Shown here in pieces: positions 33,463-53,891 of a DNA stretch of 64,000 bases. This DNA comes from Streptococcus sp. NPS 308 (GTDB lineage Bacteria > Bacillota > Bacilli > Lactobacillales > Streptococcaceae), in the NCBI RefSeq assembly GCF_002355895.1, contig NZ_AP017652.1:1149001-1213000 (forward strand), read 5' to 3'. The translations under genes and the position numbers were made by a program. Position 1 is the first letter of the stretch. Each line of letters opens with the position of its first letter. Under the pieces are notes generated by a model. The model was not told where the DNA came from, searched no databases, and worked only from the letters and a program-made list of their open reading frames with translations.

Positions 33463-33513
33463 CTAGGAATCTAAATGGGTATAGGTGATTCCTATAATAC
33501 CTTGCGATTGCAT
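33463..33513 (-). pseudogene. Fragment of a paralogue of the 106-residue gene
   Basis: The minus strand reads MQSQGIIGITYTHLDS then a TAG, matching the C-terminus GKVVGITYIHIDS of the intact gene at 35402-35722. It occupies the same position relative to DUF4304 copy A as the intact gene does relative to copy B, so it is a leftover of a tandem duplication. Confidence 0.7.
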
Positions 33514-33546
33514 GAGTTATTGACGATCTCCATCTATTCTACACAA

Positions 33547-34476: not shown

Positions 34477-34505
34477 ATTGACCTCGTTAAATTTCATCTC
34501 AAATA

Positions 34506-34646
34506 TTAATCTTTTCTTGACCAGAGAAATGCCCATTCCGAATCTAAAAGATACCAAATATCAAAATCAACTAAATTGAGTTCTATCATTTTTTTAAAAG
34601 ATTCAGGATACTTGAATATACTTTCATCCATTAAATAATTTTTCAT
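34506..34646 (-). pseudogene. SMI1/KNR4-like gene copy lacking its 3' part
   Basis: 46 residues starting MKNYLMDESIFKYPESFKKM and ending EWAFLWSRKD. Residues 13-39 match the copy at 32478-32846 (YPESFKK, IELNLVDFD, WYLLDSEWA) and then diverge into a stop. It has a start codon and an AAGGA site, so it is the 5' complement of the other broken copy. Confidence 0.7.
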
Positions 34647-34649
34647 TTC

Positions 34650-34733
34650 TTATTTCCTTTTTGGTTCAAGACTGACATAGAATGCTAAGGAAACATTGTT
34701 TTCAACCTCTTCGATGAGTTCTTTAACATTCAT
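34650..34733 (-). CDS. Possible 27-residue small protein
   Basis: Short frame MNVKELIEEVENNVSLAFYV ending LEPKRK, preceded by GGAG with seven bases spacing. It lies between DUF4304 copy B and the SMI1/KNR4-like fragment, and is absent from copy A where the equivalent DNA is deleted. Could be the head of another degraded gene. Confidence 0.3.
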   Translation of the reverse strand: MNVKELIEEVENNVSLAFYVSLEPKRK

Positions 34734-34798
34734 TTCTTTTCTCCTATTTCTTCCTTTTATCAGAATGTTGATCAGTCAATCAGACCTTTCATTCCACC

Positions 34799-35353
34799 CT
34801 AATAAGTAGTTTTGATTATTTCTCCCGAACGAATATAGGTTTTAAAGAAGTTTTTAGGTACAGAGGCAACCTTAGGTGTAATGGATAAGCCATAGTTTGC
34901 AAAATCTAAAGCAAGCTTCTTAGAATCGATTGAATCATAATACTCAACATACAATCTGCATAAGTTCACTTTGGTAATAGAGAATTGATTTAACAACCAA
35001 TCCTTCTCAAGATCCTTCTCGGGATCTATGCTCGAAAATACGGTAGGATACGATGAAAACTGAGCAGTAAAATCGATAGCCTCTCGCACAGCCTTTTCCA
35101 ATTCAGCTTGATCCATGCCATTTCTATTATCGATAAAACCTAATCGAGTCCTTAAAGCACAATCCACTTCTTCTAACAGTCCCGAGTCCAGGAAGAGGGG
35201 ATGAATGCCAATATTCACGAAATAGGCAGTCCCATCTGATTTTCGTTGAAAATAGATGACCGTGTAAAAATCTTTCTGTACCTTGTAATAGTTATTTGTA
35301 CGATTGAGTCGAGAGTAACCATACTTTGAGAATATTTCTTTCGCATGCTTCAT
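34799..35353 (-). CDS. DUF4304-like protein, copy B
   Basis: 184 residues, paralogue of 32857-33411. Begins MKHAKEIFSKYGYSRLNRTN and ends GEIIKTTY. The first ~125 bp of shared DNA at the 3' end, including 8 bp beyond the stop codon, is identical between the copies, suggesting recent duplication or gene conversion, while the N-terminal third has diverged. Likely immunity-type protein. Confidence 0.75.
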   Translation of the reverse strand: MKHAKEIFSKYGYSRLNRTNNYYKVQKDFYTVIYFQRKSDGTAYFVNIGIHPLFLDSGLLEEVDCALRTRLGFIDNRNGMDQAELEKAVREAIDFTAQFSSYPTVFSSIDPEKDLEKDWLLNQFSITKVNLCRLYVEYYDSIDSKKLALDFANYGLSITPKVASVPKNFFKTYIRSGEIIKTTY

Positions 35354-35401
35354 TATATTACCTACTCTTTCATAAGTTTTGAGAGTTTTTATTACAGTTT
35401 A

Positions 35402-35722
35402 CTAGGAATCTATATGGATATAGGTTATCCCTACAACTTTCCCGTTCTCAATATTGTATTGTTTCACTAAATTAACGTAGTTAATCAATCCTTCATTACT
35501 AATCTCTTCTAGTGTTGCTGGTACTATGTTGTGTTTTAGTTTAAAATCTCTAGCTTTATTCAAATCACCTACATCTTCTATAGATGTCCAAAAAAGCATA
35601 TATTCATCACAATAAAAATAGATCTGATTATCATAGAACTCAGGTATTTTACAGAACTCAACTCCATCACTTTGCCTTTCCAAGGCTTCACTATCACGAT
35701 AAACAAAGTAAGTTTTCTTCAT
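35402..35722 (-). CDS. Unrecognised 106-residue protein in immunity array
   Basis: Soluble, starts MKKTYFVYRDSEALERQSDG and ends GKVVGITYIHIDS. Family not recognised. Ribosome site AAAAGGAG. A fragment of a second copy lies at 33463-33513. It precedes DUF4304 copy B by 48 bp in the same direction, so the two are probably one cassette. Confidence 0.65.
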   Translation of the reverse strand: MKKTYFVYRDSEALERQSDGVEFCKIPEFYDNQIYFYCDEYMLFWTSIEDVGDLNKARDFKLKHNIVPATLEEISNEGLINYVNLVKQYNIENGKVVGITYIHIDS

Positions 35723-36011
35723 CTCTTATTTCTCCTTTTAGAAGCTTTTCTTTCTGATCTATTTAGATTTATAATCACATTACAAAGACAAGTTTAACCA
35801 TTTTGAATTATCAGACCATTCTTTCTTATTTTTCCGTTATTCTGCGTAAGTACTCTTCCCAGGTAAGGGTGATAAACCTTAAATAGACCATCCTCACTCA
35901 GCTAAGTCTTGGGGTTAGGCTGTCAACTACTCTTAAAATGCGCGACCTCGAAGTTATGAAATTTCAATATTCTTCAAACTCAAAGGGAAATAGATAACTA
36001 GCATTCTTGCT
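35723..36011. other. 289-bp gap in the immunity array
   Basis: No start-to-stop frame of note. The minus strand holds a short in-frame stretch DGLFKVYHPYLGRVLTQNNG that might be the residue of a degraded gene, with a TAA soon after. Nothing recognised. Confidence 0.35.
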
Positions 36012-36752
36012 TTATCCCTCTCGCATGCAAACATGTGGTAATTCGCTTCTAAGAAGTTCCCTTTGCTTCTGATTCGTTCTTCCTGTTGTTAAAAATCGAA
36101 GATGTTTTAGATACTTCAGGTAGCTAACTGTAGATGCGTATTTAAAAATATTGGTATCGACAAAATCTAAAAAACGAAGTTCACTAAATGGCTGGATGAA
36201 ATCCAATTCCGGTAAGTTTTTATTTGCCGTAAACGAAAGATAGAGCAGCTGATTTAAATCCCTAATAAAATTAAAGTTCGGCAACTTTACACCAAAATCA
36301 AAGTGTAGATAACACATACCTTTCTGAATAGAAATATTCTCTATACTTTCCAAATTTGTCATAGAAGATATCCCTAGAGCTTTCACACAATCATTCTGAG
36401 GCAAGATAATCTTTCTTACTCTTCTAGCTCCCACTACTAGAATCTTTTCTACATGTTCGTATTTTGAAAAGTCTATCACATCACTTTTACTTCCCATCAA
36501 GTAAAGCGTCCTTGTATTGCTTGGCAAAGAAAGCTGATTAAAATCTACATCTTTCAACATATCCTCTGGATTTTCAACAATATACTTTTGCCTTAACAGC
36601 CGATTTATATCGATGAATTCTTTATAAGTTAATTTTTCGTCCAATAATGGAGCAAGGTCTTCAATGTTAGCCAGAGGTTCCATTGCCATTAAAACCTCTC
36701 TATCTGAAATTCCTTTTTTTATTATTTCTAAATATTTATCTATACTAGTCAT
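36012..36752 (-). CDS. Leucine-rich-repeat-like protein in immunity array
   Basis: 246 residues. The N-terminal helical region (MTSIDKYLEIIKKGISDREV) is followed by irregular leucine-rich strands (RTLYLMGSKSDVIDFS, ILVVGARRVRKIILP, LESIENISI, LLYLSFTANKNLPELDF, RFLDFVDTNIF), reminiscent of short LRR immunity proteins. No signal peptide. The start at 36752 has AGAGGTC upstream; the frame extends 7 codons further. Function unknown. Confidence 0.65.
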   Translation of the reverse strand: MTSIDKYLEIIKKGISDREVLMAMEPLANIEDLAPLLDEKLTYKEFIDINRLLRQKYIVENPEDMLKDVDFNQLSLPSNTRTLYLMGSKSDVIDFSKYEHVEKILVVGARRVRKIILPQNDCVKALGISSMTNLESIENISIQKGMCYLHFDFGVKLPNFNFIRDLNQLLYLSFTANKNLPELDFIQPFSELRFLDFVDTNIFKYASTVSYLKYLKHLRFLTTGRTNQKQRELLRSELPHVCMREG

Positions 36753-36779
36753 CTTTGACCTCTTTTCGTTCATACAACT

Positions 36780-37169
36780 CTAGGAATCAATTTTTAAGGG
36801 ATTTATCTCTGCAATTCGAACTATATCAGAAATCCCTGTTAGAAGGACACCATTATTATTTATAAAGTCAAATTGAACCTTATTTTCTAAAAAAATGAGT
36901 TCTACTTGACCTTTAACCTTATGAATCCCCTTAGAATAAAAATGGATTTCATCTAAATTAAAAAACTCTAAATTAATTTTTATGGCATTGAATGCACTTT
37001 TCTGCCACTTTTCAGGGAAATTAGTTGGGAAATCAAATACATAAAGGACAAGATCTAATTTGTAATCGTAACATAATACAGTATCAAGAAATACATTATT
37101 CAAGTCCAAATCACCATCAAACAAATGAATAATCTTTTCCTTACCCACTGCTTTTTCAAACCATTTCAC
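36780..37169 (-). CDS. Imm50-like immunity protein
   Basis: 129 residues. The layout WFEKAVG...LFDGDLDLNNVFL...LDLVLYVFDFP...PEKWQKSAFNAIKINLEF resembles Imm50 (immunity protein 50), an all-beta family of polymorphic toxin systems. Starts with GTG at 37169, preceded by AAGGAG with eight bases spacing. 27 bp upstream of the LRR-like gene. Confidence 0.65.
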   Translation of the reverse strand: MKWFEKAVGKEKIIHLFDGDLDLNNVFLDTVLCYDYKLDLVLYVFDFPTNFPEKWQKSAFNAIKINLEFFNLDEIHFYSKGIHKVKGQVELIFLENKVQFDFINNNGVLLTGISDIVRIAEINPLKIDS

Positions 37170-37266
37170 AATATGAACTCCTTTTTAAAAATGAATATAA
37201 GTCTTCTTTTTAAGATTCATTGTTTCCCTCTTTAAGGAGATGGTAACTTCTCTCTTTAAGTAGGTC

Positions 37267-37893
37267 TTAGAATAGCCTAATCCTCCTGCCGTCCTTTCCT
37301 TTGGATACATCCTCAATGATTGTATTTATATGTACTTCATTAAATTGACGGGAAAAGTCTACAATTTTCTGGCGATTCTGTTCTGGATATAGATAAGATG
37401 CAGCCAAAATGAACATAAACGGAGCGATTGTTCCTCTTATATTTTCCAAATAAACATCCTTGGTGATAAAGGTCATGATTTTCTCAAAATCGTCATCTTT
37501 CAGCACAATCTTTCTTAGATAGAGTGCTGCACAAGTACCTGCAGCTTGCAATAAGTTATTCGATTCCAAGGACTCATAAACAAAAGACAAGTTCTCTGTT
37601 TCTAAATTTTCTAGATAAGCAATCGCTACTGCTAGAGAGCGATAGGTTACAAGGGTTGGAATATCTCTCAGCAGCAATGACTTGAGATAGGGGACTTCTT
37701 CTGTACAATCCGTTGCGGCCATGGCGTAGAGCAAGTACATTTGTGATTCCCATGATTTAGGCTTTTCCATCTCCCCTTCCAAGGCCTGATGCAAGAATGG
37801 TCCATATCCTTTTAGTCTGCCTTTTAAAATTTTTTTCGCTGCCTTTTTTACCAAGGGCGTTCGTCCTGAAGTCAACTCATCTACATAGTCCAT
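37267..37893 (-). CDS. HEAT-repeat-like protein in immunity array
   Basis: 208 residues, all-helical. Paired helices such as TPLVKKAAKKILKGRLKGYG, SQMYLLYAMAATDCTEEVPY and LAVAIAYLENLETENLS suggest HEAT-like repeats. Similar proteins occur as immunity-type genes next to WXG/LXG and contact-dependent toxins. Ribosome site AAGGAG. 12 bp from the neighbouring Imm26-like gene. Confidence 0.65.
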   Translation of the reverse strand: MDYVDELTSGRTPLVKKAAKKILKGRLKGYGPFLHQALEGEMEKPKSWESQMYLLYAMAATDCTEEVPYLKSLLLRDIPTLVTYRSLAVAIAYLENLETENLSFVYESLESNNLLQAAGTCAALYLRKIVLKDDDFEKIMTFITKDVYLENIRGTIAPFMFILAASYLYPEQNRQKIVDFSRQFNEVHINTIIEDVSKGKDGRRIRLF

Positions 37894-37904
37894 CTAAAAC
37901 TCCT

Positions 37905-38423
37905 TTATTTCATTTGCTTGTCCAGTTCTTCTTCCAATATTCTGTTATAAACTATACTTCCGACACAGGCTTCCCAGTCTAGGTCCTCAACTTCTTCCCT
38001 AGAAAAAATCTTAGGTTCCCGCCTACCGTCTAGCCAGACCTTCCCAAAGTGAAGACCATTTGGGTCTCCCCACTTAAAGGCTAAATCATTAAAAGGGCTT
38101 GGATCAAAATCCGCTTGGTGACCAATTATCTGCCAAGACCATACTGGACTTCGATCAAACAAGGTGAAGGAATCTACAATGATGGGCTTACCTATAAATT
38201 GAGCACGACTTAGCTCTTCAACTGTTATAGTAGGACTTGCTTGAAAGATATTGAAAAATTGGATGACATGACCAACATTCACTTTTCCAAGGATTTGACC
38301 AAATACAAACATTTCCTCCGAAAATTGATAGCAAAAAATATCACCAATTTTAATAAATCGAAGTTTTGTTCTTGGCTTTTCATTCCACTCAAGAATCTTT
38401 ATCTGGGGCAATTTTTTCTGCAT
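37905..38423 (-). CDS. Imm26-like immunity protein
   Basis: 172 residues. The opening (LRFIKIGDIFCYQFSEEMFV then FGQILGKVNVGHVIQFF) follows the Imm26 pattern of an SH3-like beta barrel. Rich in Trp/Phe. Expected to neutralise a nuclease-type toxin by direct binding; cognate toxin not in the window. Confidence 0.65.
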   Translation of the reverse strand: MQKKLPQIKILEWNEKPRTKLRFIKIGDIFCYQFSEEMFVFGQILGKVNVGHVIQFFNIFQASPTITVEELSRAQFIGKPIIVDSFTLFDRSPVWSWQIIGHQADFDPSPFNDLAFKWGDPNGLHFGKVWLDGRREPKIFSREEVEDLDWEACVGSIVYNRILEEELDKQMK

Positions 38424-38442
38424 AATTAATTTAAATCCTTTC

Positions 38443-39003
38443 CTACTGCTCTTTATTTAAGATATGACATAGATCATCTCTTAGAACAATTCCATCGTCT
38501 TCTATCAGATAGGCCATGTGCTCCCAGAAGGGCAATTCTTGTTCAAGGGGTTCTTCCAAGGCAAGTACTTGATCATTCAAGTTTGCCGCAATCTCTTCGA
38601 CTGCATCTTGCTCAATCTCATAAAACTTCGCTTTCAAAAGAAAGATGCTTGATAGAAAGAGCGAATAAGAAGAATTAAAAGCTTGCAAGGAAGAATTGAC
38701 AAAAACTCTATCTTCTTGAAAAACTTCTCTTCCTTCTTGATTGCAAAGCAAAAAGATCTGCTCTTTTTCTCCAATCACAAAAGCACCTAAAAAACATTGC
38801 CCAAAAAGACTGTACTTTTCAGAACCTTTCCTAAGTTCCACCAGCTCCTGTTCAGTTTTGATAAAAGAAAATCCCATTTTGGAATAATCTTCTAAATAAG
38901 CAAAGAGGTTGAAAAGAATCTCATCAAAACTAAAGATTTTCTCCTCTGAAGGCACCACACAAAAACCGTTCTCTTTCACTAATTCATCGATATTCCCAGT
39001 CAT
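38443..39003 (-). CDS. Possible SUKH-4-like immunity protein
   Basis: 186 residues, acidic, soluble. The central block FGQCFLGAFVIGEKEQIFLL followed by NQEGREVFQEDRVFVN and an aromatic helix SSYSLFLSSIFLL resembles SUKH-4 proteins. Confidence in the family is modest. Ribosome site AAAGGATTGAGAA. Confidence 0.55.
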   Translation of the reverse strand: MTGNIDELVKENGFCVVPSEEKIFSFDEILFNLFAYLEDYSKMGFSFIKTEQELVELRKGSEKYSLFGQCFLGAFVIGEKEQIFLLCNQEGREVFQEDRVFVNSSLQAFNSSYSLFLSSIFLLKAKFYEIEQDAVEEIAANLNDQVLALEEPLEQELPFWEHMAYLIEDDGIVLRDDLCHILNKEQ

Positions 39004-39053
39004 TTCTCAATCCTTTCTTCTGATAACTAGCTCTGAGGTTGTTCACATAAGAG

Positions 39054-39871
39054 CTAGTCAAGACCCCAGTCCAGTTCCAAACACTTGGCTACATCCTCAA
39101 AATAATCATCCCAGGCCCATTTGTAATCCTTCCGACTCAATAGATAATCCACATACTTTTCATTATTCCAACTCTCTGTATAGATAGAAAGAGCTCGCCT
39201 TTTTCTAGCATCTTGGATTGTCGCAATTTTTTTCTGAGCCTTCTTTGACCGTTCACTCAAATTGTTTATATAGAGAATATCCGGATCCTCAGGACAAATG
39301 GTCTCCGTCAAGTCACACCTTGTAAACCCGACAAAACTGAGATGAGCCTCTGATAGATCTTTTCTACTTTCTTTGTCTTCGACCCAAAAGTACATTCAGA
39401 CAGTTTTCCAATGATTTTATTAGACTGAAATTCTGGTAGGGGAAAGAAAATATCGTGCATCCTACACTTTTTAAAGAGACAATCCCTCATCTCACTGACA
39501 TTCTCCAAAAGAGGACGCTCCATCTGACAAGAAAGAAAGGTAGACGATATAATGTGACTGTCATAAAATAAAGTTCCATTTAAATTGCATCGTTTGAAAG
39601 TACAGTTTCGAATAACTGTATGATCTTTGAAGCTGATTTCCCTCAAATCACAGTTTTCAAAGAAGACATTGTCAAAGATACAGTTTTCAAACACGAATCG
39701 TGAACTCTCTAGTATTCTGATGCTTGTTTCCTTAAAGTGCTGATTCCGAATAAAACGAATCCTTCTTGCTTCCTCTATTAGATTTTCAATCGATAGCTTC
39801 TCACCACTGTTTAGGATGATCTGTCCATCCTTTATGATAATCCCATCTTTCTCAACCATCTCCTGCTCCAT
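39054..39871 (-). pseudogene. Frameshifted pentapeptide-repeat protein
   Basis: The 5' frame (39871 to 39308) encodes pentapeptide-type repeats: FVFENCIFDNVFFENCDLRE, then CTFKRCNLNG and CLFKKCRMHD. Near 39390 it runs as ECTFGSKTKK and soon ends. The next frame continues naturally as FWVEDKESRKDLSEAHLSF, GFTRCDLTE and ends CLELDWGLD at 39054. Adding one T to a TTTT run at about 39386-39389 would join both into one protein of 272 residues. So either a real frameshift or a sequencing error. Pentapeptide proteins also occur as immunity-type genes; function here unknown. Confidence 0.75.
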
Positions 39872-39902
39872 CTTCTCATACTTCTCTTATAACCGACTAC
39901 AC

Positions 39903-40292
39903 CTAGTAGTATGCGATTTCTCCTAAACCATATTCTAATATTTCAAGACTATTGAGGGAGAATTTAAAGCCTCTACCATGCTCCGAGTCCTCTTTCAGTC
40001 CAAATTTCAAGCCGAAAATTAAATCTATATCCCTTTGCTCAGACAAGATAAAAATGGAAAGGAGTCTTGCACTTGCTAATTCTGTAAATTCCTTCTGAAT
40101 TTTTGCCAAAGCTTTTGGATACCATACTGATGATTGATCCAGGAGATTATCTAGTTTTGCTCTGTAAGACGGAGTCAACTCCTCATTGATAACCTCTAAA
40201 GAATCACTTAAAGTAAGGCAGATATTTTCTCTTTCCTCTGGAATCGATACAAACATCTCGTTATGGACATCAAATTGATATTCTCTCATCAT
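39903..40292 (-). CDS. DUF6985/DUF2004-like protein in immunity array
   Basis: 129 residues. N-terminal EYQFDVHNEMFVSIP and C-terminal FGLKEDSEHGRGFKFSLNSL (an acidic-HG motif) resemble small beta proteins of the DUF2004/DUF6985 kind that cluster with immunity genes. Two adjacent Met codons; the first has AGGAG five bases upstream. Assignment tentative. Confidence 0.55.
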   Translation of the reverse strand: MMREYQFDVHNEMFVSIPEERENICLTLSDSLEVINEELTPSYRAKLDNLLDQSSVWYPKALAKIQKEFTELASARLLSIFILSEQRDIDLIFGLKFGLKEDSEHGRGFKFSLNSLEILEYGLGEIAYY

Positions 40293-40344
40293 TTTCTCTC
40301 CTAATGCTATCAGTCATCAGATACCATTTCGCTAATCAGCCTAG

Positions 40345-40683
40345 CTAATCATTAAAGGGCATAAAATTATCGTGCTGATTATAATAATTCAAAGCATCAA
40401 CCAAGTTTTGGAGACTTGCATCTGGCTTTTCTTCGAGCGCTACGGTGAGAACATCAATCAACTGCTCTCCATAGTAGACTAGCTGGAGGTTTTGTTCCGC
40501 CACTTCTGTCGGGTAGACATCACGGTCTTCCACGACATCTGGATAATTTGATACCCAATATAGGCTATTAAGTGTTAGTTCTCCATCCTCCTTGGCATAG
40601 AGACAAAAATCATCTGATGATAACTTGTCCACACGCACCTGCTCGATAATCTGCTCAAGTGAACGTTCTAAATATTTACGCAT
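40345..40683 (-). CDS. Small acidic protein, DUF7716-like
   Basis: 112 residues. Pattern LYAKEDGELTLNSLYWV ... EDRDVYPTEVAEQNL ... LVDALNYYNQHDNFMPF looks like the DUF7716 family, seen among immunity genes. The second of two adjacent ATGs is chosen since AAGGAG is five bases before it. Tentative family call. Confidence 0.55.
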   Translation of the reverse strand: MRKYLERSLEQIIEQVRVDKLSSDDFCLYAKEDGELTLNSLYWVSNYPDVVEDRDVYPTEVAEQNLQLVYYGEQLIDVLTVALEEKPDASLQNLVDALNYYNQHDNFMPFND

Positions 40684-40708
40684 CATTTCTCCTTTTTAGT
40701 CTCACGCT

Positions 40709-41122
40709 TCAACAAAGGAATTCAAAAAAATCCTCCAAAGATGGCCATTGACCATACACCTCAGCTGTTTCTTCTAGAACATAGAAATACACCTTGCCAT
40801 AATCCTCTTCCCTTAGAGAAAGAGCATAGTTACCCGATCCAGGATCATAGGCAAAATGGAGAAGATCTGCGCCCTTAAATCCAGCAGGCACAGCCTCATC
40901 GTCAAACCATGTAAGAGACTTTTTAATTTCGTCAAGTGAATTAAAGGAATTGAAAGGAAAGAGATGACAATCATCGTGAACACCCCTTACTTGGGGCTGG
41001 ACTCCGTTGTGCTGGAGATAAAAGCCCAACATAGTTTTTGGCAATTTCTTCCCAAGAATCTCCTCAAATTGTAAAAGGTCTTCTTTTGAAATCGGTGAAT
41101 CTGCTTCCAGCACTCTAAACAT
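40709..41122 (-). CDS. SMI1/KNR4 (SUKH-1) family immunity protein
   Basis: 137 residues. Clear SUKH hallmarks: EEILGKKLPKTMLGFYLQHN (substrate-pocket entry), LLHFAYDPGSGNYALSL and GKVYFYVLE, ending with WPSLEDFFEFL. SUKH proteins neutralise a wide range of toxin domains. AGGGAG ribosome site. Followed in the transcript by the DUF7716-like gene 25 bp on. Confidence 0.85.
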   Translation of the reverse strand: MFRVLEADSPISKEDLLQFEEILGKKLPKTMLGFYLQHNGVQPQVRGVHDDCHLFPFNSFNSLDEIKKSLTWFDDEAVPAGFKGADLLHFAYDPGSGNYALSLREEDYGKVYFYVLEETAEVYGQWPSLEDFFEFLC

Positions 41123-41140
41123 GATTACTCCCTTCCAGTT

Positions 41141-41476
41141 TTACAATTCTTCCTCTAAAATCTTGTCAATAAAGTCATAGACGTTTGCAGCTACTTTCTG
41201 CATTTCTAAGGAACCTAAAGCACCTAAGTCATTTTCATAAATGGAATCATCTGCATTTTTCTTGATAAAATAAGCCAAATCTCCCTCTTGACCAATCAAA
41301 AAGAAGTCTGGTTCATCTACTTCTATCTGATAGGTCTCATTACGCTCTAATAGATCCTCATTAGCATATAAACAGATACCTGAGTCACCAATCTTATAAG
41401 GATCCACTTCGTCCCATTCTGATAAAAACTGATAATAGAGATTTGGTAACACAAATCCGAACTCATTTCTTTTCAT
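41141..41476 (-). CDS. Short SMI1/KNR4-like immunity protein
   Basis: 111 residues. FGFVLPNLYYQFLSEWDEVD and FFLIGQEGDLAYFIKKNADD give a compact SUKH fold, ending in a helix VAANVYDFIDKILEEEL. GGAGG ribosome site. First gene of the immunity array in transcription order, 18 bp ahead of the longer SUKH-1 protein. Confidence 0.75.
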   Translation of the reverse strand: MKRNEFGFVLPNLYYQFLSEWDEVDPYKIGDSGICLYANEDLLERNETYQIEVDEPDFFLIGQEGDLAYFIKKNADDSIYENDLGALGSLEMQKVAANVYDFIDKILEEEL

Positions 41477-43512: not shown

Positions 43513-45765
43513 TTAGTCTTTCCCACCAAGTCTACTATTGATGGTCATCATGATGCTGGCTATTTTCTCACCCCAGTAAGGATCAGAAGCATAGCGAACA
43601 TTCATTCCGGTCGCCTTGTTTCCAAGGTGGTCTCTGCCGTAGTCAATGTAATTCTCACGAATCCACTTGGCAGCTCCTAGAATTCCTTTATCCACATTAT
43701 CAAAGCTCTTGGCTGAGAGATAAGGGCTCGTATCATAAGCCGCAATACCAAAGAAGTTGTTCTTATCTCTGGCAATTTGACTGCGACCCCAAGCACTTTC
43801 AAGGGCACTATGGGCCATCAAGTAAAGGGCATTGACACCGTAACGTTCCTCAGCTTCTTTGAAAGTCGCTCCTTTACCTGCTAGAGGACTATCCTGCAAG
43901 TTCATCATGGAGTAAATTTTATTCAACTCAGCTGCACTATAATTACTTGGCTCTCTCAAGTTTTTATAGAGGAAAGGATTTTTAACCGTAAAGCCATCAA
44001 AATGCTCACCATCAGTCGAGTAGTACTTCTTACCAATAACCATAGCAGATGTGTGTGGAGCTACTTTGATACTCGTATAAGGAGAGAGTTCATGATAGAG
44101 GAATTTCCCATCACTAGTATAATGTGGGATAAACTCGCTTCCTTCGTCCACAGCTGTCAAATCACTTTGATTCATATAGCCAGACAAGCCAGAAATCGAA
44201 ACTGCAAGTCGGCCGCCTTTTCGCGTCGAGCTATCCAGTGAAACAATGCTTCCTTGGTTAATGTAACTCAAGATTTCTCCAGATGCACTATAGACATAGG
44301 CTGTAATTGGTTTAACTTTGTAATACTTGGTTTTATCCGCAACATGCCATCTACCAGAAGCATCCAAGGTATGACCATCCACAGTTTCATTTTTTGCCAT
44401 ATAACCGCCGGATTTAAGGTAATACCATGATTGGTCGGATGAATCGTAGATTAATTCTTTCTCAGCCATCTTTCCATTTGACTTGAGGTAGAACCAATTG
44501 TTCTTGTACCATACCCACTCACTCGCAGCCATATAACCACCAGATTTGAGATAGTAGTAACCATTATCCCAGAGCCATTCTTTATTGGCATAATTTCCAT
44601 CAGAGTTAATATAGAACCAAGAGTTATAATTCTTGTCAAAGAGCCACCCTTTGCCAGCTTTTGCTCCACTGCTCGTCACATAACTGCGGTCAATCCAAGT
44701 TTCCGTAGAGAGGTAGCCGCCTGATTTGAAATGGTAATCCTTGCCTTTGATGGTTTGCCAACCTTTTTCAGCATAGGTTCCGTCAGCTTTCAAGTAAAAC
44801 CAAGAGTTATAAGTCTTGTCAAAGAGCCATTCCGATTTCAATTTAGCTCCACTTTTAGCAACATAGAAGCGGTCAATCCAGCGCTCGGTAGAAAGATAGC
44901 CGCCTGATTTGAAATGGTAATCTTTTCCATCAATTGTTTGCCAGCCTTTTTCAACATAGTCGCCTTCGGCATTGAGATAGAACCATGATTCGTAGTTCTT
45001 ATCGAAAATCCAGCTTGTTTTCGCCTTATGGCCACTTGAAGTTACATAAGATTTTCCAAGCCAGGTATTTGTAGCCAGATAACCACCCTGTTTGAAGTAA
45101 TAATCTTTCCCTTTAACTGTTTGCCAACCGTTTTCTGCGTAGTTGCCATCCGCTTTCAGGTAGAACCAACTGCTATAATTAGCATCATAGATCCAAGCCT
45201 GTTTTACCTTATTTCCTTTATCAGATAGGTAGTGAGAGCCATGCCAGGTATTTTTTAAGATTTTACCTTGTGAATTGATGTAGTACTGGTTCTCACCTTG
45301 AGTAATCCACTCATCTTTGGCCATTTTCCCGTCTTCTTTAAGGTAATATTTTTCCTGACCTTGTTGAATCCACTCATTTTGAGCTTTCTGACCATCAGAC
45401 TTGAGATAATACCAGGATTCTTGTTCCTGATTAAATACCCACTGTTCCTTGGCTTTAGCACCACTTTCAGTCACATAGTACTGGCCAATCCACGTTTTCG
45501 AAGCTAATTTTCCAGCTTCGTTAAAATAGTAATCCTTACCAGCAACAGTCAACCAACCGTTTTCTGCACGTTGACCATCTTCTTTAAGATAAAACCAGTT
45601 CTGATGCGTTTGGTCAAAAAGCCATTGCTTGGTTGCTGGTTTCCCGTCTGATTTGAGGTAGGTCTTTCCTTGCCACGTCCCCTCTTCTGCTTTTGCTGTC
45701 TCCACTACAGTAAAAAAACACCCCAATAAGCCAGCACTTACTAGGGCCACTTTCCATCGTTTCAT
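43513..45765 (-). CDS. lytB: Choline-binding endo-beta-N-acetylglucosaminidase LytB
   Basis: 750 residues. Signal peptide ends near VETAKAEEG (about residue 27). Choline-binding repeats run from about 30 to 475, with WFYLKADGNYAENGWQ-type units in a regular alternation with shorter YYFKQGGYLATNTWLG units. An SH3b-like segment and the GH73-type catalytic domain follow, with MAHSALESAWGRSQIA carrying the catalytic Glu near 653. LytB separates daughter cells at the pole. The DNA of the repeats is internally similar, so copy number may vary. Upstream of it lies pyrDb. Confidence 0.97.
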   Translation of the reverse strand: MKRWKVALVSAGLLGCFFTVVETAKAEEGTWQGKTYLKSDGKPATKQWLFDQTHQNWFYLKEDGQRAENGWLTVAGKDYYFNEAGKLASKTWIGQYYVTESGAKAKEQWVFNQEQESWYYLKSDGQKAQNEWIQQGQEKYYLKEDGKMAKDEWITQGENQYYINSQGKILKNTWHGSHYLSDKGNKVKQAWIYDANYSSWFYLKADGNYAENGWQTVKGKDYYFKQGGYLATNTWLGKSYVTSSGHKAKTSWIFDKNYESWFYLNAEGDYVEKGWQTIDGKDYHFKSGGYLSTERWIDRFYVAKSGAKLKSEWLFDKTYNSWFYLKADGTYAEKGWQTIKGKDYHFKSGGYLSTETWIDRSYVTSSGAKAGKGWLFDKNYNSWFYINSDGNYANKEWLWDNGYYYLKSGGYMAASEWVWYKNNWFYLKSNGKMAEKELIYDSSDQSWYYLKSGGYMAKNETVDGHTLDASGRWHVADKTKYYKVKPITAYVYSASGEILSYINQGSIVSLDSSTRKGGRLAVSISGLSGYMNQSDLTAVDEGSEFIPHYTSDGKFLYHELSPYTSIKVAPHTSAMVIGKKYYSTDGEHFDGFTVKNPFLYKNLREPSNYSAAELNKIYSMMNLQDSPLAGKGATFKEAEERYGVNALYLMAHSALESAWGRSQIARDKNNFFGIAAYDTSPYLSAKSFDNVDKGILGAAKWIRENYIDYGRDHLGNKATGMNVRYASDPYWGEKIASIMMTINSRLGGKD

Positions 45766-45875
45766 TTAAATGCTCCAATAACGTTTTCTAATCCCTATTG
45801 TAACATAGTTAATCGACGGAAATATTACAAATTGATGAAGATTCTATTTCTTGTTGACGATAAGGAAGACCTAGC

Positions 45876-47625
<1,750 letters not shown>

Positions 47626-47658
47626 GATTTTCCTCCTTAAATTTTAAGGGGACCAGAT

Positions 47659-47687
47659 AAAGAAAAGACCTTGCTATTGCAAGGTCT
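47659..47687 (-). terminator. Attenuator terminator of the pyrK leader
   Basis: AGACCTTGC / GCAAGGTCT stem with four-base loop, then UUUCUUU on the minus strand, ending 35 bp before the pyrK ATG. Works with the PyrR site upstream. Confidence 0.85.
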
Positions 47688-47770
47688 CAGTCGAGATAGG
47701 ACAGAACTCATGGACACACCTAAAAAGTCTCCACAGAGAATTCCCTATCACTTTTATCTGACACCTTGTG

Positions 47771-47784
47771 AGTCTCTCTGGACT
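47771..47784 (-). promoter_or_regulatory. PyrR-binding RNA motif
   Basis: Minus strand AGTCCAGAGAGACT matches the PyrR anti-antiterminator loop consensus ARUCCAGAGAGGYU. With the terminator at 47659-47687 it forms a UMP-responsive attenuation leader for pyrK-pyrDb. A promoter TATACT lies near 47810. Confidence 0.85.
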
Positions 47785-47830
47785 CCCCTTAAAGGTTAAA
47801 TTTGTATTAGTATACTCTTTCAAAGTAAAA

Positions 47831-47864
47831 AAGTCAAGTAGAAAACGAACATTCTACTTGACTT
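47831..47864 (-). repeat. Direct repeat copy A (terminator hairpin after HEPN gene)
   Basis: A 13-bp stem (AAGTCAAGTAGAA / TTCTACTTGACTT) placed 8 bp beyond the HEPN stop codon and followed by T-rich minus-strand DNA. The 32 bp at 47833-47864 match 49778-49809 with one difference. Confidence 0.85.
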
Positions 47865-47872
47865 GTGATCTA

Positions 47873-49312
47873 TTAACCAATTTGCAAACTATTAAAATCA
47901 CCAATAAAATTTTCTAAGTCTCTCATAGAAGTTTGAATTTTTACCACCCTTCCATTCCATCTATCTTCAAAGCTGACTATCACTTCATTGTAATTGGTGT
48001 CAAATTTAAAGTTTCCATGAGAAATAGCATTCCTAATTTTTGTACAAACAAATTCTTTATTTAAATCGTGAGTTATCATTTTCTGATTACCAAATTTTAA
48101 ATAATAATCATTGGCAAAATCAATCATATCCTGATCATCATAGACAAATTTTGAAACATCTAATTCGCTATAATCAAGTTCGGGCAAATCATCATCCTCT
48201 AACCTTAAGGCAAAATTAAATATTTTTAAAATTGTAAACATGTAGCGGAAAAATATTATCGACTCTGAGTCCTCTTGCAATTCATCCAAACTTCTCAAAA
48301 TATCGTTTTTGCCTTCTTCTAGCTTTCCTTCCGAGTATAGAGTAAAACAATTTATAATTCTATCGTTCAATTGTCGTATATGCACAAAGAAGTTTGATAT
48401 TTCCGTCTCTGGATCACAGAGTGCTTTGTAAAGATATGGTAAATGTTCCTTATCTCCATTCTCTTTTTCGATTATATTATGAAGAACACTAATTTTTTTT
48501 TCATCCAATATCTGCTCTTCAACTCTAAAATCACTAGAGTTTAAGAAATCATCCATTCTTTGCAAACCAAATTCACTATCTAAATCCGATTGATAATCTA
48601 AAAACTGAATCATCGGATGAATTTGTCCAGGGATATATTGAACTGAATCATTCTCGAAAGTTACTACAGTAAAAACATGATGCGGTTTAAATTCATGTTC
48701 CTTGAAAGAAAAATTACTTATGAATGAATGTTTATATGGTAGCCCCAAGACAGATTGATTTGAGTAATATCGACTAATAAATTCATGTATCACAGGCTCT
48801 AACGCAATTCCCATATATTTTAGATGTCCTTTATCTTTATTAAAAATACCATATAAAATCATTACACCTGGCTCACACATAGAAAAATTACCATACTGCA
48901 TATGTGCGAAAGCATTGCGTAATCGTACAATTTCATCATAAATATTTCCAGGCTGTGGTTCAGTGTCAATAATTAGATGAGCAAATCCATCCAAATAAAA
49001 GTTGTAATTTTCATTTATGAAATTTCTGTACGATTCATAGTTGATTTCCTTCAAATCCATTTTAAAATTATCAAGGTATTTAAATTGCTTTGTTGCCTTC
49101 AAATATTCTTTTTCTAATTTATTTCTATTATATATCATTAAAGATGCATCAAGAAACACTCTAAATTTTGAAAATTCAACAAGAGTTAGCTCACCAAAAT
49201 TTCTAGAGAATATTTTTTCTTTGATTTTATCAATATCAAGTTTACCCTCGTATAGTTTCGATAGTTCTTCAATAATCTTTGCATTGCTAATCAAATAGTG
49301 CGACATTATCAA
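47873..49312 (-). CDS. Protein with two HEPN-type RNAxxH motifs
   Basis: 479 residues, soluble. Two copies of the R-x4-H HEPN ribonuclease signature: LRNAFAHMQYGNF (Arg132...His137) and IRNAISHGNFKF (Arg427...His432). Both sit in helical surroundings. HEPN domains with this motif form RNase active sites in abortive-infection proteins, toxins, RloC/PrrC and Cas13; here no CRISPR or known partner is nearby. Starts with TTG at 49312 (AAAGG seven bases upstream) or ATG at 49306. AT-rich and codon use unlike the flanking core genes. Lies between gloA and pyrK with near-identical direct repeats on both sides, so it is probably acquired. Family not recognised further. Confidence 0.7.
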   Translation of the reverse strand: MIMSHYLISNAKIIEELSKLYEGKLDIDKIKEKIFSRNFGELTLVEFSKFRVFLDASLMIYNRNKLEKEYLKATKQFKYLDNFKMDLKEINYESYRNFINENYNFYLDGFAHLIIDTEPQPGNIYDEIVRLRNAFAHMQYGNFSMCEPGVMILYGIFNKDKGHLKYMGIALEPVIHEFISRYYSNQSVLGLPYKHSFISNFSFKEHEFKPHHVFTVVTFENDSVQYIPGQIHPMIQFLDYQSDLDSEFGLQRMDDFLNSSDFRVEEQILDEKKISVLHNIIEKENGDKEHLPYLYKALCDPETEISNFFVHIRQLNDRIINCFTLYSEGKLEEGKNDILRSLDELQEDSESIIFFRYMFTILKIFNFALRLEDDDLPELDYSELDVSKFVYDDQDMIDFANDYYLKFGNQKMITHDLNKEFVCTKIRNAISHGNFKFDTNYNEVIVSFEDRWNGRVVKIQTSMRDLENFIGDFNSLQIG

Positions 49313-49343
49313 CTTTATACCTTTTCTAATTTATTTTATGAAC

Positions 49344-49480
49344 TCACATTTTATTCCCAAACGCCTTCTTCCGTTCTTCCATAAACTCAATCAACTCTTT
49401 TTTGAAAATTTCCTTTTCTTCTTCGATCAGTCCTTTTGAGTCTACTCTCCCATGAAGCGTAAACAGGTTGCGAAATTTCT
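49344..49480 (-). pseudogene. Possible 3' end of a lost gene
   Basis: Minus-strand frame KFRNLFTLHGRVDSKGLIEE then EEKEIFKKELIEFMEERKK and GNKM, ending in TGA 32 bp before the HEPN start. It opens right after an in-frame stop and has no start codon. Looks like the highly charged C-terminus of a truncated protein that once preceded the HEPN gene. Confidence 0.4.
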
Positions 49481-49594
49481 AGTTTTTCATCCACTTCAAC
49501 TTAAATAAAGTTTGCTTTTTTATTAGTTCTTTTAAACATTTTAAAAATTCCATTTTTAAGCCTATAAACACTTTTTCAAAAATATCTCGATAAA

Positions 49595-49637
49595 TATATC
49601 TATTGGTTATAAAACATAAATATAACCTATAGGTATA
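49595..49637. repeat. Imperfect inverted repeat upstream of HEPN gene
   Basis: TATATCTATTGGTTATA and TATAACCTATAGGTATA flank a 9-base AT spacer; 15 of 17 positions pair. May be an operator or a structured RNA. Confidence 0.6.
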
Positions 49638-49698
49638 TCGGTTTTAAAAATAATAATGCTAACTTTTAGCATATAGATTTTTGAAAATTAAATAAAAA

Positions 49699-49739
49699 GT
49701 GTATCTGACAACCAGAGGATTGGTTGTCAAAACTACACT
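49699..49739 (-). terminator. Terminator-like hairpin in the HEPN insertion
   Basis: TGACAACC / GGTTGTCA with an 8-base loop, extended by outer AGTGTA / TACACT arms, followed on the minus strand by UUUUUAUUU. Confidence 0.65.
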
Positions 49740-49775
49740 AAACTTCCTACCTTTATTGTAAACGTTTTTGAAAAA

Positions 49776-49811
49776 GAGTCAAGCAGAAAACGAACATTCT
49801 ACTTGACTTTA
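49776..49811 (-). repeat. Direct repeat copy B (terminator of gloA)
   Basis: Hairpin AGTCAAGCAGAA / TTCTACTTGACT directly after the gloA stop codon. 31 of 32 bases equal copy A at 47833-47864. Confidence 0.85.
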
Positions 49812-49816
49812 CTGGA

Positions 49817-50197
49817 TTATTTTTCACGAATGACTTCAACCTTGTAGCCATCAGGATCTTTGACAAAGTAATAGTTTGGTGGGGTTCCTGGAAGTCCATT
49901 AGGCTCTGTAACCTCATAGCCTTTCGCGCTGTGTTCTTGATGAAGTGCCTCAAGGTCAGGTGTACTGAGGGCGATATGAGCAAAGCCATCACCTACCACA
50001 TAAGGGCCGTGGTCATAGTTATAGGTCAACTCCAACTCGTAGTCATCACCATCAAGTCCTAGATATACAATCGTGAAGGCATGATCTGGAAAATCTCTGC
50101 GACGCAATTCTTTAAAACCAAAAGCATCTTGATAAAATGCGATTGATTTTTCAAGGTTTTCTACTCGCAAGCAAGTGTGTAGCATTTTTGAAGCCAT
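49817..50197 (-). CDS. gloA: Lactoylglutathione lyase (VOC family)
   Basis: 126 residues with two beta-alpha-beta-beta-beta modules of the VOC fold: HTCLRVENLEKSIAFYQDAF, YDHGPYVVGDGFAHIAL and PNYYFVKDPDGYKVEVI. Metal ligands His and Glu are at the expected places (HTCLR, LELTYNYDHG, HIAL, VEVI). Detoxifies methylglyoxal adducts; streptococci often lack glutathione synthesis, so another thiol may be used. Follows rplT. Confidence 0.92.
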   Translation of the reverse strand: MASKMLHTCLRVENLEKSIAFYQDAFGFKELRRRDFPDHAFTIVYLGLDGDDYELELTYNYDHGPYVVGDGFAHIALSTPDLEALHQEHSAKGYEVTEPNGLPGTPPNYYFVKDPDGYKVEVIREK

Positions 50198-50255
50198 AGC
50201 TTTCTCCTTTATTTTTAAAAAGACTGGGACAATCCTGTTCCAGTCTTATCAATTA

Positions 50256-50615
50256 TTATTTACCAAGTTTTGCTTTAGCTGCATCTGCAAGAGCAGCGAA
50301 AGCTGCTGCATCGTTAACAGCTAAGTCAGCAAGCATTTTACGGTTAACTTCGATCTCAGCCAATTTCAAACCATGCATCAATTGTGAGTATGAAAGTCCG
50401 TTCATACGAGCTGCCGCGTTGATACGAGTGATCCACAATTTGCGGAAGTCACGTTTTTTCTGACGACGGTCACGGTATGCATAGTAGTAAGAGTTCATTA
50501 CTTGTTCTTTTGCAGTACGGAACAAGATGTGTTTAGCTCCATAGTAACCTTTTGCTAATTTAAGAATACGTTTACGACGTTTGCGTGATACAACGCCACC
50601 TTTAACACGTGCCAT
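50256..50615 (-). CDS. rplT: 50S ribosomal protein L20
   Basis: 119 residues beginning [20 protein letters not shown], standard length. Early assembly protein of the large subunit and, in Firmicutes, the repressor of its own infC-rpmI-rplT operon through the leader RNA. Ribosome site GGAGG. 51 bp after rpmI. Confidence 0.98.
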
Positions 50616-50666
50616 GTTTTATTTCCTCCAAATATTTCCTAGAATTGTTTACTTACTGTTAGGCTA

Positions 50667-50867
50667 TTATTTCAAGCGAGTAAGCATTGCTTTGATACGT
50701 TTGAAATCTCCTGAATGCACCATAGATGCTTTACGAAGATGACGACGTTGTTTCTTAGTTTTTCCGTGGAAACGGTGAGAAGTGTAAGCACGGAAACGTT
50801 TAAGTCCACCAGAACCTGTACGTTTGAAACGTTTAGCTGATGCGCGGTGTGTTTTTTGTTTTGGCAT
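50667..50867 (-). CDS. rpmI: 50S ribosomal protein L35
   Basis: 66 residues, [20 protein letters not shown] at the start and very basic. Ribosome site AAAGGAG. Middle gene of the infC-rpmI-rplT operon. Confidence 0.98.
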
Positions 50868-50899
50868 GATTTTTTCTCCTTTATTTAACTTTCTGACAA

Positions 50900-51421
50900 T
50901 TATTTTTTGTCAGTTGCTGGCGCCAACTGCATGAACATTTGGCGTCCATCCATCTTAGCTCGTTGTTCGATGATCGCAATATCTTGTGTTGCTTCAGCAA
51001 ACTCGGCTAAAACTTTTGCACCAATCTCTTTATGGGTGATCATACGCCCTTTAAAGCGAATGGATACCTTAACTTTATTTCCTTTTTCAAGGAACTTGCG
51101 TGCATTGCGAAGTTTTGTGTCAAAGTCACCCTTGTCAATAGTTGGACTCAGACGAACTTCTTTCACAGTAACAACACTTTGTTTTTTACGTTGTTCTTTT
51201 TGCTTTTTCTGGTACTCAAATTTGAACTTACCGTAGTCCATAATTTTAGCAACAGGCGGTTTTGCTTGGGGTTGAATTAAAACTAAGTCAACATTCGCAC
51301 TATCAGCCAATGCTTGCGCTTCGCTGAGTGGCTTGATGCCTAGCTGTTCTCCCTCAAGACCGATCAAGCGAACTTCACGTACACGAATTTCATCATTGAT
51401 GAATAAGTCTTGCTTTGCTAT
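50900..51421 (-). CDS. infC: Translation initiation factor IF-3
   Basis: Binds the 30S subunit and checks start-codon fidelity. N-domain [20 protein letters not shown], linker, and C-domain [20 protein letters not shown] are complete. Start choice: GAGGTG is followed after six bases by ATA (51421), the rare-codon start expected for IF-3 autoregulation (173 residues). The usual annotations with GTG at 51430 or the TTG further up have no room for a ribosome site. The other starts give 176 or more residues. Leads the operon and follows an attenuator leader. Confidence 0.9.
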
Positions 51422-51446
51422 GGTTTTCACCTCTTTTTTATTATTA

Positions 51447-51485
51447 GAGAAAAACAATAGCGGACTCGTAATGATACAAGCCCGC
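51447..51485 (-). terminator. Attenuator terminator in infC leader
   Basis: GCGGGCTTGTA / TACGAGTCCGC, an 11-bp stem with two G-U pairs and a four-base loop, then UAUUGUUUUU on the minus strand, 25-40 bp ahead of infC. Confidence 0.75.
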
Positions 51486-51487
51486 AC

Positions 51488-51585
51488 GTTATGATAGCGT
51501 TTCTTAGAAACTTTTCATCCGTAGGGCCAGGCAACTTGATGTCACAAGGCGAGAAGCTCTCACTTCTGCTTTTCTCAACTTTTAT
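51488..51585 (-). promoter_or_regulatory. Structured infC leader (L20-leader-like)
   Basis: The minus-strand leader contains GAGAAAAGCAGAAGTGAGAG / CTTCTC pairing and the block CTTGTGACATC, then the attenuator hairpin. This layout suits L20-mediated autoregulation. Precise class not confirmed. Confidence 0.6.
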
Positions 51586-51614
51586 ATGATACCAAGTTTT
51601 CTATTCCTTGTCAA
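51586..51614 (-). promoter_or_regulatory. infC operon promoter
   Basis: TTGACA (51614-51609) and TATCAT (51591-51586) on the minus strand, 17-bp spacer. Gives a leader of about 160 nt. Confidence 0.8.
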
Positions 51615-51650
51615 GATAAAAAGTCAATTTTTCGAAAAACTTTATCTATT

Positions 51651-53891
51651 TTATCGCACTGTTTCCATTCGCCAACTATTCCAACCTTTAAAGCGAATGG
51701 CTCCTTGCTGGTCTGTTCGGTAAATCTTACTCTTGATGCTTTCTAGTCGTGCCAAGGTTTCCTGATGAGGGAGTTTGGCACGATTGTTCTTGCCCACTGA
51801 AATAAGAGTAATTTCCGGTTTGAGCTTCTCTAAAAAAGCTGGACTAGATGAAATCTTTGAACCATGTTGACCTGCTTTCAAGATATCCACCTCTATGGTA
51901 GGGTATTGCTTTAAAAGTTCCTGCTCTCCCCTCTCCTTCAAATTCCCAGTAAAGAGAAAGTGCTTATCCAAGAGTTTTCCATAAAGAAGGAGAGAATCAT
52001 TACGATTCCCATCTCCAATCTGCCTTGTAGATAGGACTTCTAACTGATTCCCAAAAATCGGCAAGTTCTCCCCTGCAGTTACACTGCGTACCTTGGTTTG
52101 AGTCGCTTGTAGTTCTGCCACAAATTCCTTCTGTGTCAAACTTCCTTTTGACACTAAAATTTCGCCCACATGGAAAGCATTGGTCACCTCCAGCAAATCT
52201 CCAACATGCTCCTTGTCTGTATTGGTCAAAATCAGCTGATCAATCTTATCTACTCCTCGACTTTTCAGATAGGGAATCAAGGTTCTCTTGGCATTGCTGG
52301 TTGTCGACTTTTGCTGCCAAGCTTGGATTTTTTTGTCGGATTCTGCCTTTCCGCCCACATCTATGAGAATGTTTTTACCAGTTACATCCCTTAGAAAAAT
52401 ACTTTCTCCCTGCCCTACATCCAGCATGGTAATTTCATTTTCCAGCGGGTGTTTGGTTAAGAAAAAGAACCCTACGATAAAGAGGCTGAATCCTGCTAGT
52501 CTTTTGACATTTTTCCTAAAGTCATAGACCAAGGCCAATGAAACTAAGAGAAGAATCAAAAGCCATGCGTTGGGTTGGCCAAAGACCAAGGGCCTACTTG
52601 CCATCTGCGATACCAAGTGAATGATGCTCTCTAACCATTCAAAGGCAAGGTTAAGCTGAGTGACTGGGTAAACAAAAGACAGAATGAATAAGATAGACAA
52701 AAGCGGTAAGAAAACCAAGTCAAACAAGAAGGAAAAGACAAAGGTCAAAAGGATTGACCAAGGCTGAAATTCTGCAAAATAAAAGGACAAAATGGGCAAT
52801 ATTCCCAAGGAAATTATCAGACTTTCTCTGGCAACAGCCTTGAGCCCCTCCCCTTCTTTGCTTGTCATAGTCAAGATAAAAGCGTAGGCACAGGACAAGA
52901 CACCTCCTGCTGTCAGGAAAAAGTTGGGCATGATGATAAAGAGGACAAGAACCGTTAAGGCAAAATTGTCCAAGCCCTTAACACCATGTTGGGCTAGTAA
53001 TTTTTGTAAGAGACTACGAATGACCGAAGCTGAGAACCCTGTCAGACCTGCATAGATAAGGGAAAAAGGGTAGATCAGCCACTTCAACTTTTCTTGAGTC
53101 AAGCCCAATCGCAAAAGGAGCTTCTTAAACCCATCCATAAAAAATCCAACCTGCATACCCGACAAGGCAAAGAGATGGATAATCCCTAGACTGGAATAAA
53201 GCTCATTCATCTCCTCGAAGTCCGTATCCAGATGTCCAAAAAGAAGACCTGTCATATAGTTGCGCATAGGGTCGGGAAAGTGCGTCTTGATCCAAACTAC
53301 AGCCTTTCGACGTAAACTGGACAGATTTTCTCCTATATCCCAACTGCTAATCTTTTTCATTGACTGGATACTCTTGATAGTCAAAGTTTGGTAAATCCCC
53401 TGAGTTTTCAGATAGGCTTGGTAGTCAAAGCCACCAAAATTCCTCTGGCCTTCTGGTTCCGAAAGTTTTCCTTCTAGTTCTATCTCATAGAGCTCTGTCA
53501 AGGCTTGAAATTGCTCTTTCTCCTCCTCGGACTGGAGTTTATAGTAAACTTGGAAAGTACGTCCGTCAGTCTTGCCCCGAAAAGATAGACTATCTCCATT
53601 AACCTTAATAGTATCTGGTAAAATTCTCACCTTCTCTACAGACGCAACTAAGTCTTGACTAGCTTGTGTCTGTTGCCAGTTTTGAAACAGAAACCAAAAT
53701 CCAAAAAATCCACAAATCGCTAAAACTTTACCAGCCGATTTCCAAGGAAATTGGATAAAGAGACAAACTAGCAGAAAAACGAAACCTAGCAGCGCGAGAT
53801 AAGATACGGAGAAAATGGCGTAGTAAAGCCAAAGCAACAGAAAACTCAGATAGATTAGGGGGATAGGGAAGTTCTTAATCCACCGTAACAT
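51651..53891 (-). CDS. comEC: Competence DNA channel ComEC
   Basis: 746 residues. Membrane channel through which single-stranded DNA enters. N-terminal helices, an OB-like extracellular part (about 95-180), the Competence domain (about 205-480; GLLFGHLDTDFEEM, FALSGMQVGFF), and a C-terminal metallo-beta-lactamase-like domain from MLDVGQGES (about 492). Within it the usual HxHxDH is changed to NTDKEH, as I recall for other streptococci. Overlaps comEA by 17 bp. Also called celB. Confidence 0.96.
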   Translation of the reverse strand: MLRWIKNFPIPLIYLSFLLLWLYYAIFSVSYLALLGFVFLLVCLFIQFPWKSAGKVLAICGFFGFWFLFQNWQQTQASQDLVASVEKVRILPDTIKVNGDSLSFRGKTDGRTFQVYYKLQSEEEKEQFQALTELYEIELEGKLSEPEGQRNFGGFDYQAYLKTQGIYQTLTIKSIQSMKKISSWDIGENLSSLRRKAVVWIKTHFPDPMRNYMTGLLFGHLDTDFEEMNELYSSLGIIHLFALSGMQVGFFMDGFKKLLLRLGLTQEKLKWLIYPFSLIYAGLTGFSASVIRSLLQKLLAQHGVKGLDNFALTVLVLFIIMPNFFLTAGGVLSCAYAFILTMTSKEGEGLKAVARESLIISLGILPILSFYFAEFQPWSILLTFVFSFLFDLVFLPLLSILFILSFVYPVTQLNLAFEWLESIIHLVSQMASRPLVFGQPNAWLLILLLVSLALVYDFRKNVKRLAGFSLFIVGFFFLTKHPLENEITMLDVGQGESIFLRDVTGKNILIDVGGKAESDKKIQAWQQKSTTSNAKRTLIPYLKSRGVDKIDQLILTNTDKEHVGDLLEVTNAFHVGEILVSKGSLTQKEFVAELQATQTKVRSVTAGENLPIFGNQLEVLSTRQIGDGNRNDSLLLYGKLLDKHFLFTGNLKERGEQELLKQYPTIEVDILKAGQHGSKISSSPAFLEKLKPEITLISVGKNNRAKLPHQETLARLESIKSKIYRTDQQGAIRFKGWNSWRMETVR

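Follow-up and report, generated by a model that had tools for sequence, protein, structure and literature searches.

A predicted tandem-HEPN antiphage protein of Streptococcus and the repressor-headed payload slot from which it may derive

We describe a gene of Streptococcus sp. NPS 308 that lies between gloA and pyrK and encodes a protein with two HEPN-type R-x4-H motifs in one chain. It was analysed within a stretch of 64,000 nucleotides (contig NZ_AP017652.1, positions 1,149,001 to 1,213,000), hereafter the window, where it occupies 47873..49312 on the reverse strand as an uninterrupted open reading frame (ORF) of 479 amino acids (aa) when read from a TTG at 49312, or of 477 aa from an ATG at 49306. 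This tandem-HEPN protein is probably a stand-alone abortive-infection RNase directed against phages, whose two HEPN halves make one composite site; its gene would have been carried as the payload of a repressor region of an integrative and conjugative element (ICE) and captured later between gloA and pyrK.

Two R-x4-H motifs in HEPN-like halves

The first motif, R132-H137 (RNAFAH, within LRNAFAH), is encoded at 48902..48919 and the second, R427-H432 (RNAISH, within IRNAISH), at 48017..48034, both on the reverse strand and in the numbering of the 479-aa form. The presence of two such motifs in a single 479-residue chain, claimed by the original prediction from the DNA letters, is thereby confirmed. 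The pair is more than a product of chance: two copies of the strict pattern RN[AGS]xxH arose in none of 5000 residue shuffles of the protein, and two copies of the looser R[NDHEQ]xxxH in 60 of 5000. The gene is A+T-rich, with a G+C content of 29% versus 40% for the window.

A protein search yielded 46 family members, one of them identical to the window protein, and a profile-based second search added 15, giving an alignment of 61 sequences. Listed lengths are 458–551 aa for relatives that cover 95% of the query or more, and identity to the window protein drops to about 30%. All 60 aligned members with residues at the first motif have its R and H, and all 56 with residues at the second have its R, N and H and the G that comes next; N within the first motif is kept in 53 of 60. 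The motifs differ in their continuations, HMQYG after the first and HG after the second. A SEC-C motif occurs in 3 of the 46 relatives, and a SEC-C-like stretch was noted by eye at the start of the relative in locus L003. The species-level genome collection holds at least 9 family loci, a lower bound since they were found by two peptide patterns. Within Streptococcus the family is sparse (5 of 284 genomes, the five carrying the same ORFs as the streptococci of the species-level collection). Two relatives are split into two frames, one in S. peroris (L006, 9920-11418; 437+62 aa) and the other in a faecal phage-like record (L124, 2290-3751; 216+275 aa).

An AlphaFold model built from a 46-row alignment was confident, with a mean predicted local distance difference test score (pLDDT) of 86 and a predicted TM-score (pTM) of 0.89. 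In the 477-aa numbering, the N-terminal half contains a helix (122-134), three strands (138-144, 148-158 and 161-169) and a further helix (170-180), and the C-terminal half a helix (415-429), three strands (433-438, 441-450 and 453-460) and a helix (461-468). Both halves thus follow the same order, in which helices lead to a helix ending at R-x4-H, followed by three strands and a helix. The motif histidine is the residue directly after helix 122-134 and, in the second half, directly after helix 415-429, so the placing of both motifs in likely helices was borne out, at the helix ends.

Profile searches relate one half to a known family. In Pfam only the C-terminal half of the window protein matches, to PF18736 at 18.4 bits, below the curated cut-off of 26.6 bits; 19 of the 46 relatives match the same profile at E<=1, and PF18736.8 is assigned to P0001 and to many relatives in the precomputed annotation of the protein database. 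When 348 sampled genomes of the phylum were searched for PF18736, two genes were obtained, with open frames of 193–198 aa and, by eye, a single R-x4-H each. For one of them 83 relatives were found, and from the 77 with lengths of 150–225 aa we built a single-HEPN profile, against which the C-terminal half scored 46.7, a value that none of 60 motif-preserving controls reached (maximum 36.5). The C-terminal half is related to single-domain HEPN proteins of PF18736, as judged by sequence similarity.

Support for the N-terminal half is weaker. It scored 29.5 with the same profile, and 3 of 60 motif-preserving controls did as well (maximum 31.1). Direct comparison of the two halves was marginal once it went beyond the motif, and fold searches gave no clear or significant HEPN match, though the halves are helix-rich. 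The middle region did not match the single-HEPN profile (49 of 60 shuffles scored as high). The C-terminal half is thus related in sequence to single-HEPN proteins, while the case for the N-terminal half rests mainly on the invariance of its motif and on the element order common to both halves. The prediction of two HEPN-type halves therefore holds for motif invariance, the PF18736 similarity of the C-terminal half and the repeated helix, three-strand, helix layout, and is weaker for the N-terminal half; structure prediction, which had been suggested as a check, recovered that layout and left the HEPN fold itself unconfirmed.

An exchangeable payload slot behind an ImmR-like repressor

Neighbouring ORFs match gloA and pyrK when judged by eye, in agreement with the flanks named by the original prediction. 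DNA from gloA to the start of the HEPN gene matched 254 of 284 Streptococcus genomes, and the 30 best matches were taken as junction loci. A block of 1,913 bp at 47865..49777, comprising the HEPN gene, a broken XRE-repressor gene and upstream DNA, is absent from 28 of these 30 best-matching gloA-pyrK junctions; the exceptions are one locus without the pyr side (L044) and one that is rearranged (L047). In alignments with the 28 junctions the extra block has sharp ends, with breakpoints at 47861-47864 and 49769-49772. It is flanked by a 32-bp direct repeat, a terminator hairpin whose left copy lies at 47833..47864 and whose right copy, with one mismatch, lies at 49778..49809, both on the forward strand. 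Each of four empty sites that were read carries a single terminator hairpin, and the hairpin core has 29 copies across the 30 junction loci. A separate feature before pyrK, at 47657-47799 on the reverse strand, resembles a PyrR-binding-site leader (46.4 bits, under the Rfam gathering score of 54).

The broken gene in the block, at 49350..49536 on the reverse strand, is the remnant of an XRE (ImmR-like) repressor gene, with pieces in different frames and stops. The DNA upstream of and into this gene, which we call the cassette head, lies at 49434..49777 on the reverse strand; a stretch of about 49434-49783 led to further copies elsewhere in Streptococcus, with 67–80% identity over about 340–360 bp in the best loci (L048, L001 and others) and less than 100 bp in seven. 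In the four copies read first, an open XRE gene is followed by a gene or gene pair that differs between loci and then by a gene of the ImmA/IrrE type (M78; a fragment in L050). Three of these four cassettes adjoin an FtsK-type gene and two small marker genes, and L050 retains one small marker (FtsK was assigned by Pfam for L048 and by similarity for other loci). These markers are presumably part of a Tn916-like conjugative element, and we infer that the cassette belongs to an ICE.

The set was extended to 45 cassette loci, namely the first four, a Streptococcus mitis locus (L001) and 40 further stretches (one of them, L112, another site in an already sampled genome), and the head was matched in all 45. 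Close matches to the XRE protein (E<=1e-25) occur in 53 of 284 Streptococcus genomes. An ImmA-type M78 protease gene is present in 38 of the 45 loci and at least one of the three marker genes in 39; FtsK was found in 3, because most stretches extend just about 1.5 kb upstream. The first ORF of at least 100 aa after the XRE gene lies on the same strand in 41 of the 44 loci that have one, and is the M78 gene itself in four (L105, L106, L116 and L121). A single locus of the 45, S. mitis L001, carries the HEPN protein as its payload, 7 bp behind an open XRE gene and near a fragment of one marker gene. The window locus likewise has the head DNA and, directly upstream on the same strand, the XRE gene, here as the broken remnant; the HEPN gene thus appears to be a cassette payload. 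A downstream ImmA/IrrE (M78) gene is absent from L001 and, according to the ORF list, from the window gene order.

This arrangement resembles the ImmR/ImmA modules of TnSmu1 and ICEBs1 and the CapH/CapP pair, in that an XRE repressor and an ImmA/IrrE protease frame the payload slot; unlike them, the window has a broken repressor and no protease, and L001 has no protease. In ICEBs1, ImmA is reported to cleave ImmR upon DNA damage or cell signalling; the same has been proposed for TnSmu1, and CapH/CapP of the cyclic-oligonucleotide-based antiphage signalling system (CBASS) is described as a parallel to ImmR/ImmA (PMC10233336).

We compared 25 payload proteins, picked by eye from 21 of the 45 loci, with the defence models of PADLOC; the selection omits L001, contigs of short length, near-duplicate loci, loci in which every ORF is small or broken, and the majority of the more distant heads. 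Matches were obtained for 18 proteins at E<=1e-5 and for 13 at E<=1e-20, versus 3 and 0 of 10 control ORFs of 320–800 aa drawn at random from 13 eligible ones in the window (Fisher test, P = 0.029 and 0.0035, respectively, for proteins that are non-independent). The models matched include RT-Toprim_I-C (L089, 1.5e-215), BovA (L049, 2.8e-173), RT_III-A with PRTase_III-A (L095, 7.3e-127 and 1.5e-57) and a further PRTase_III-A (L091, 1.3e-25); we take the payloads matching RT models to be retrons and the BovA payload to be a Borvo system. Other payloads matched Septu-like pairs (L048 and L088, with an AAA partner in L102), OLD/AriA-like proteins (L084, L092), a SIR2 protein (L050, also Pfam SIR2_2), PDC-S15 candidates (L096, L101), AbiH (L100, 1.9e-8) and JukB/IetA-like proteins (L103, 5.7e-11 and 1.1e-8). 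Seven payload proteins (L051, L082, L085, L094, L097, L109 and L110) had no PADLOC match, and the window HEPN protein matched no PADLOC family at E<=10. Overall, the slot between the XRE head and ImmA (L048-L051, L082-L121) holds many unrelated genes, and its PADLOC-unmatched payloads are candidate novel defence genes.

Proposed mechanism and competing explanations

In the mechanism that we propose, each half of the chain would be a HEPN-like unit (helices ending in R-x4-H, three strands, a helix) related to PF18736 (pEK499_p136). Being pre-joined in one chain, the two units would behave as an intrinsic dimer whose R-x4-H motifs together form a single composite RNase site. A likely sensor or brake is the middle region (about residues 180–290); upon infection the brake would be released, phage and host RNA would be cut and the infected cell would stop. 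The defence function and the RNase catalysis of the protein are predicted, and we infer both the composite site and the trigger. The HEPN gene may first have travelled in a streptococcal ICE, as an exchangeable payload downstream of its ImmR-type repressor; gene and head would then have been captured between gloA and pyrK, where the repressor decayed but the HEPN gene did not. Co-expression with the repressor during dormancy of the element is likely for a gene that follows it directly, which would suit an immunity gene. A broader reading, whose chances we consider evenly balanced, is that one-chain HEPN pairs arose by fusion or duplication of a PF18736-type HEPN and form a family of single-protein antiphage RNases. 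In streptococci they would be one payload among many that can replace each other in a defence slot within the ImmR-ImmA control region of ICEs, where immunity genes stand behind the element's own repressor, as the rex genes of phage lambda stand behind cI, and the dormant element pays its keep; the chromosome could later capture such a payload on its own while the repressor decays.

The expectation of an antiphage or toxin system receives indirect support from the payload slot and from some neighbourhoods of relatives. In L005 and L006 the relative precedes a C5-methyltransferase gene (tested in L005, by eye in L006) and a putative restriction gene, whose sole Pfam match is below cut-off. In L007 (Anaerovorax, 2983-11464) the HEPN relative comes directly after an Avs3a gene (2066 aa) and a second gene, which matches Avs3b in part. 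No defence neighbour was recognised in L002, L003, L004, L008 and L009, where a scan covered some of the neighbours.

The protein might instead serve exclusion or stability of a mobile element, targeting rival conjugative elements or plasmids and not phages. Its likely ancestral place, a mobile-element regulatory region, would fit such a role, as would relatives seen by eye with a recombinase-like gene in a Gardnerella stretch (L016) and with an integrase-like gene in a 7.6-kb record (L124). However, many sister payloads match antiphage systems, and relatives also occur away from obvious mobile-element genes, for example directly after valS in L004-L006 (by eye). We consider this explanation unlikely.

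The 7-bp spacing in S. mitis could also suggest that the HEPN protein is a toxin whose antitoxin is the adjacent XRE protein, the window gene then being an orphan toxin. Yet the window combines an intact HEPN gene with a broken XRE gene, which argues against the repressor being an antitoxin. The same XRE gene precedes many unrelated payloads, and 8 of 9 genome loci have no such gene directly upstream of the HEPN relative (by eye). Moreover, the comparable TnSmu1 repressor has been tested by others, and the data described there gave no support for such a role (PMC10233336). A toxin-antitoxin pair is improbable. The same observations bear on the suggestion of a degraded multi-gene system: a partner gene is indeed broken, but it looks like a mobile-element repressor and not an antitoxin.

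Still less probable is a two-HEPN protein without an RNase role, RNA-binding or structural in function, in which the motifs would be structural. Several non-motif residues (N60, N156, S304 and N305) are just as invariant as the motif R and H in the 61-sequence alignment, as this would allow; against it, proteins that share only about 30% identity retain R and H in each half, with N retained in 53/60 (first motif) and 56/56 (second). An RNA-guided, Cas13-like effector or ancestor is very improbable: two HEPN units in about 480 aa recall Cas13an, reported at 429–577 aa with an intramolecular HEPN pair (PMC12165695), but no CRISPR repeat array was found when flanks of the window gene and of ten loci were searched, and no AbiF RNA (RF03085) in window positions 44000-53000 (E<=1) or in L001-L007 (gathering score), and the motif follows the PF18736 layout.

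Relation to known systems and other observations

The family shares with PF18736 (HEPN pEK499_p136) the profile similarity of its C-terminal half and the sequence R-N-x-x-x-H followed by strands and a helix. It differs in having two halves and a middle region in 477 aa, whereas the two sampled PF18736 genes encode 193–198 aa with one R-x4-H. For the pEK499_p136 family, restriction-modification and Pgl neighbourhoods have been reported (Anantharaman et al. 2013, PMC3710099). The tandem-HEPN family may be among twelve uncharacterised AlphaFold clusters with intramolecular HEPN dimers, reported in a source that also presents such pairs as a defining feature of Cas13 and relevant to its origin (PMC12165695). 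SpbK of ICEBs1 sets a precedent: it is a single-gene abortive-infection system carried on a conjugative element, though unlike the protein described here it is a TIR protein (PMC8880864). As in our working model, the HEPN effectors Csx1 and Csm6 have a composite HEPN site.

HEPN antiphage RNases are known already, as are one-chain HEPN pairs and defence genes on ICEs. New, as far as the open-licence literature matches listed go, are a tandem PF18736-like family and an exchangeable payload slot behind an ICE-type repressor; among those matches, no title or abstract opening describes either. From a compact, apparently guide-free HEPN pair one would learn how control of such a pair works when there is no RNA guide. 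The XRE head offers a simple bait: genes behind it in streptococcal genomes should reveal more unknown defence genes, because 7 of the 25 tested payload proteins match nothing in PADLOC.

As for other partners and domains, inspection by eye of the ORF lists for L001-L009 and for the surroundings of the window gene, with some of the neighbours also scanned, showed no apparent MNT nucleotidyltransferase gene, and the window protein had no Pfam match to Abi_2 at E<=10. Elsewhere in the window, at 31982-41476 on the reverse strand, there are sixteen ORFs of 100–336 aa. By eye, two of them encode related 184-aa proteins and some are SMI1/KNR4-type immunity-like, so that the region is possibly the immunity-gene array of a polymorphic toxin system.
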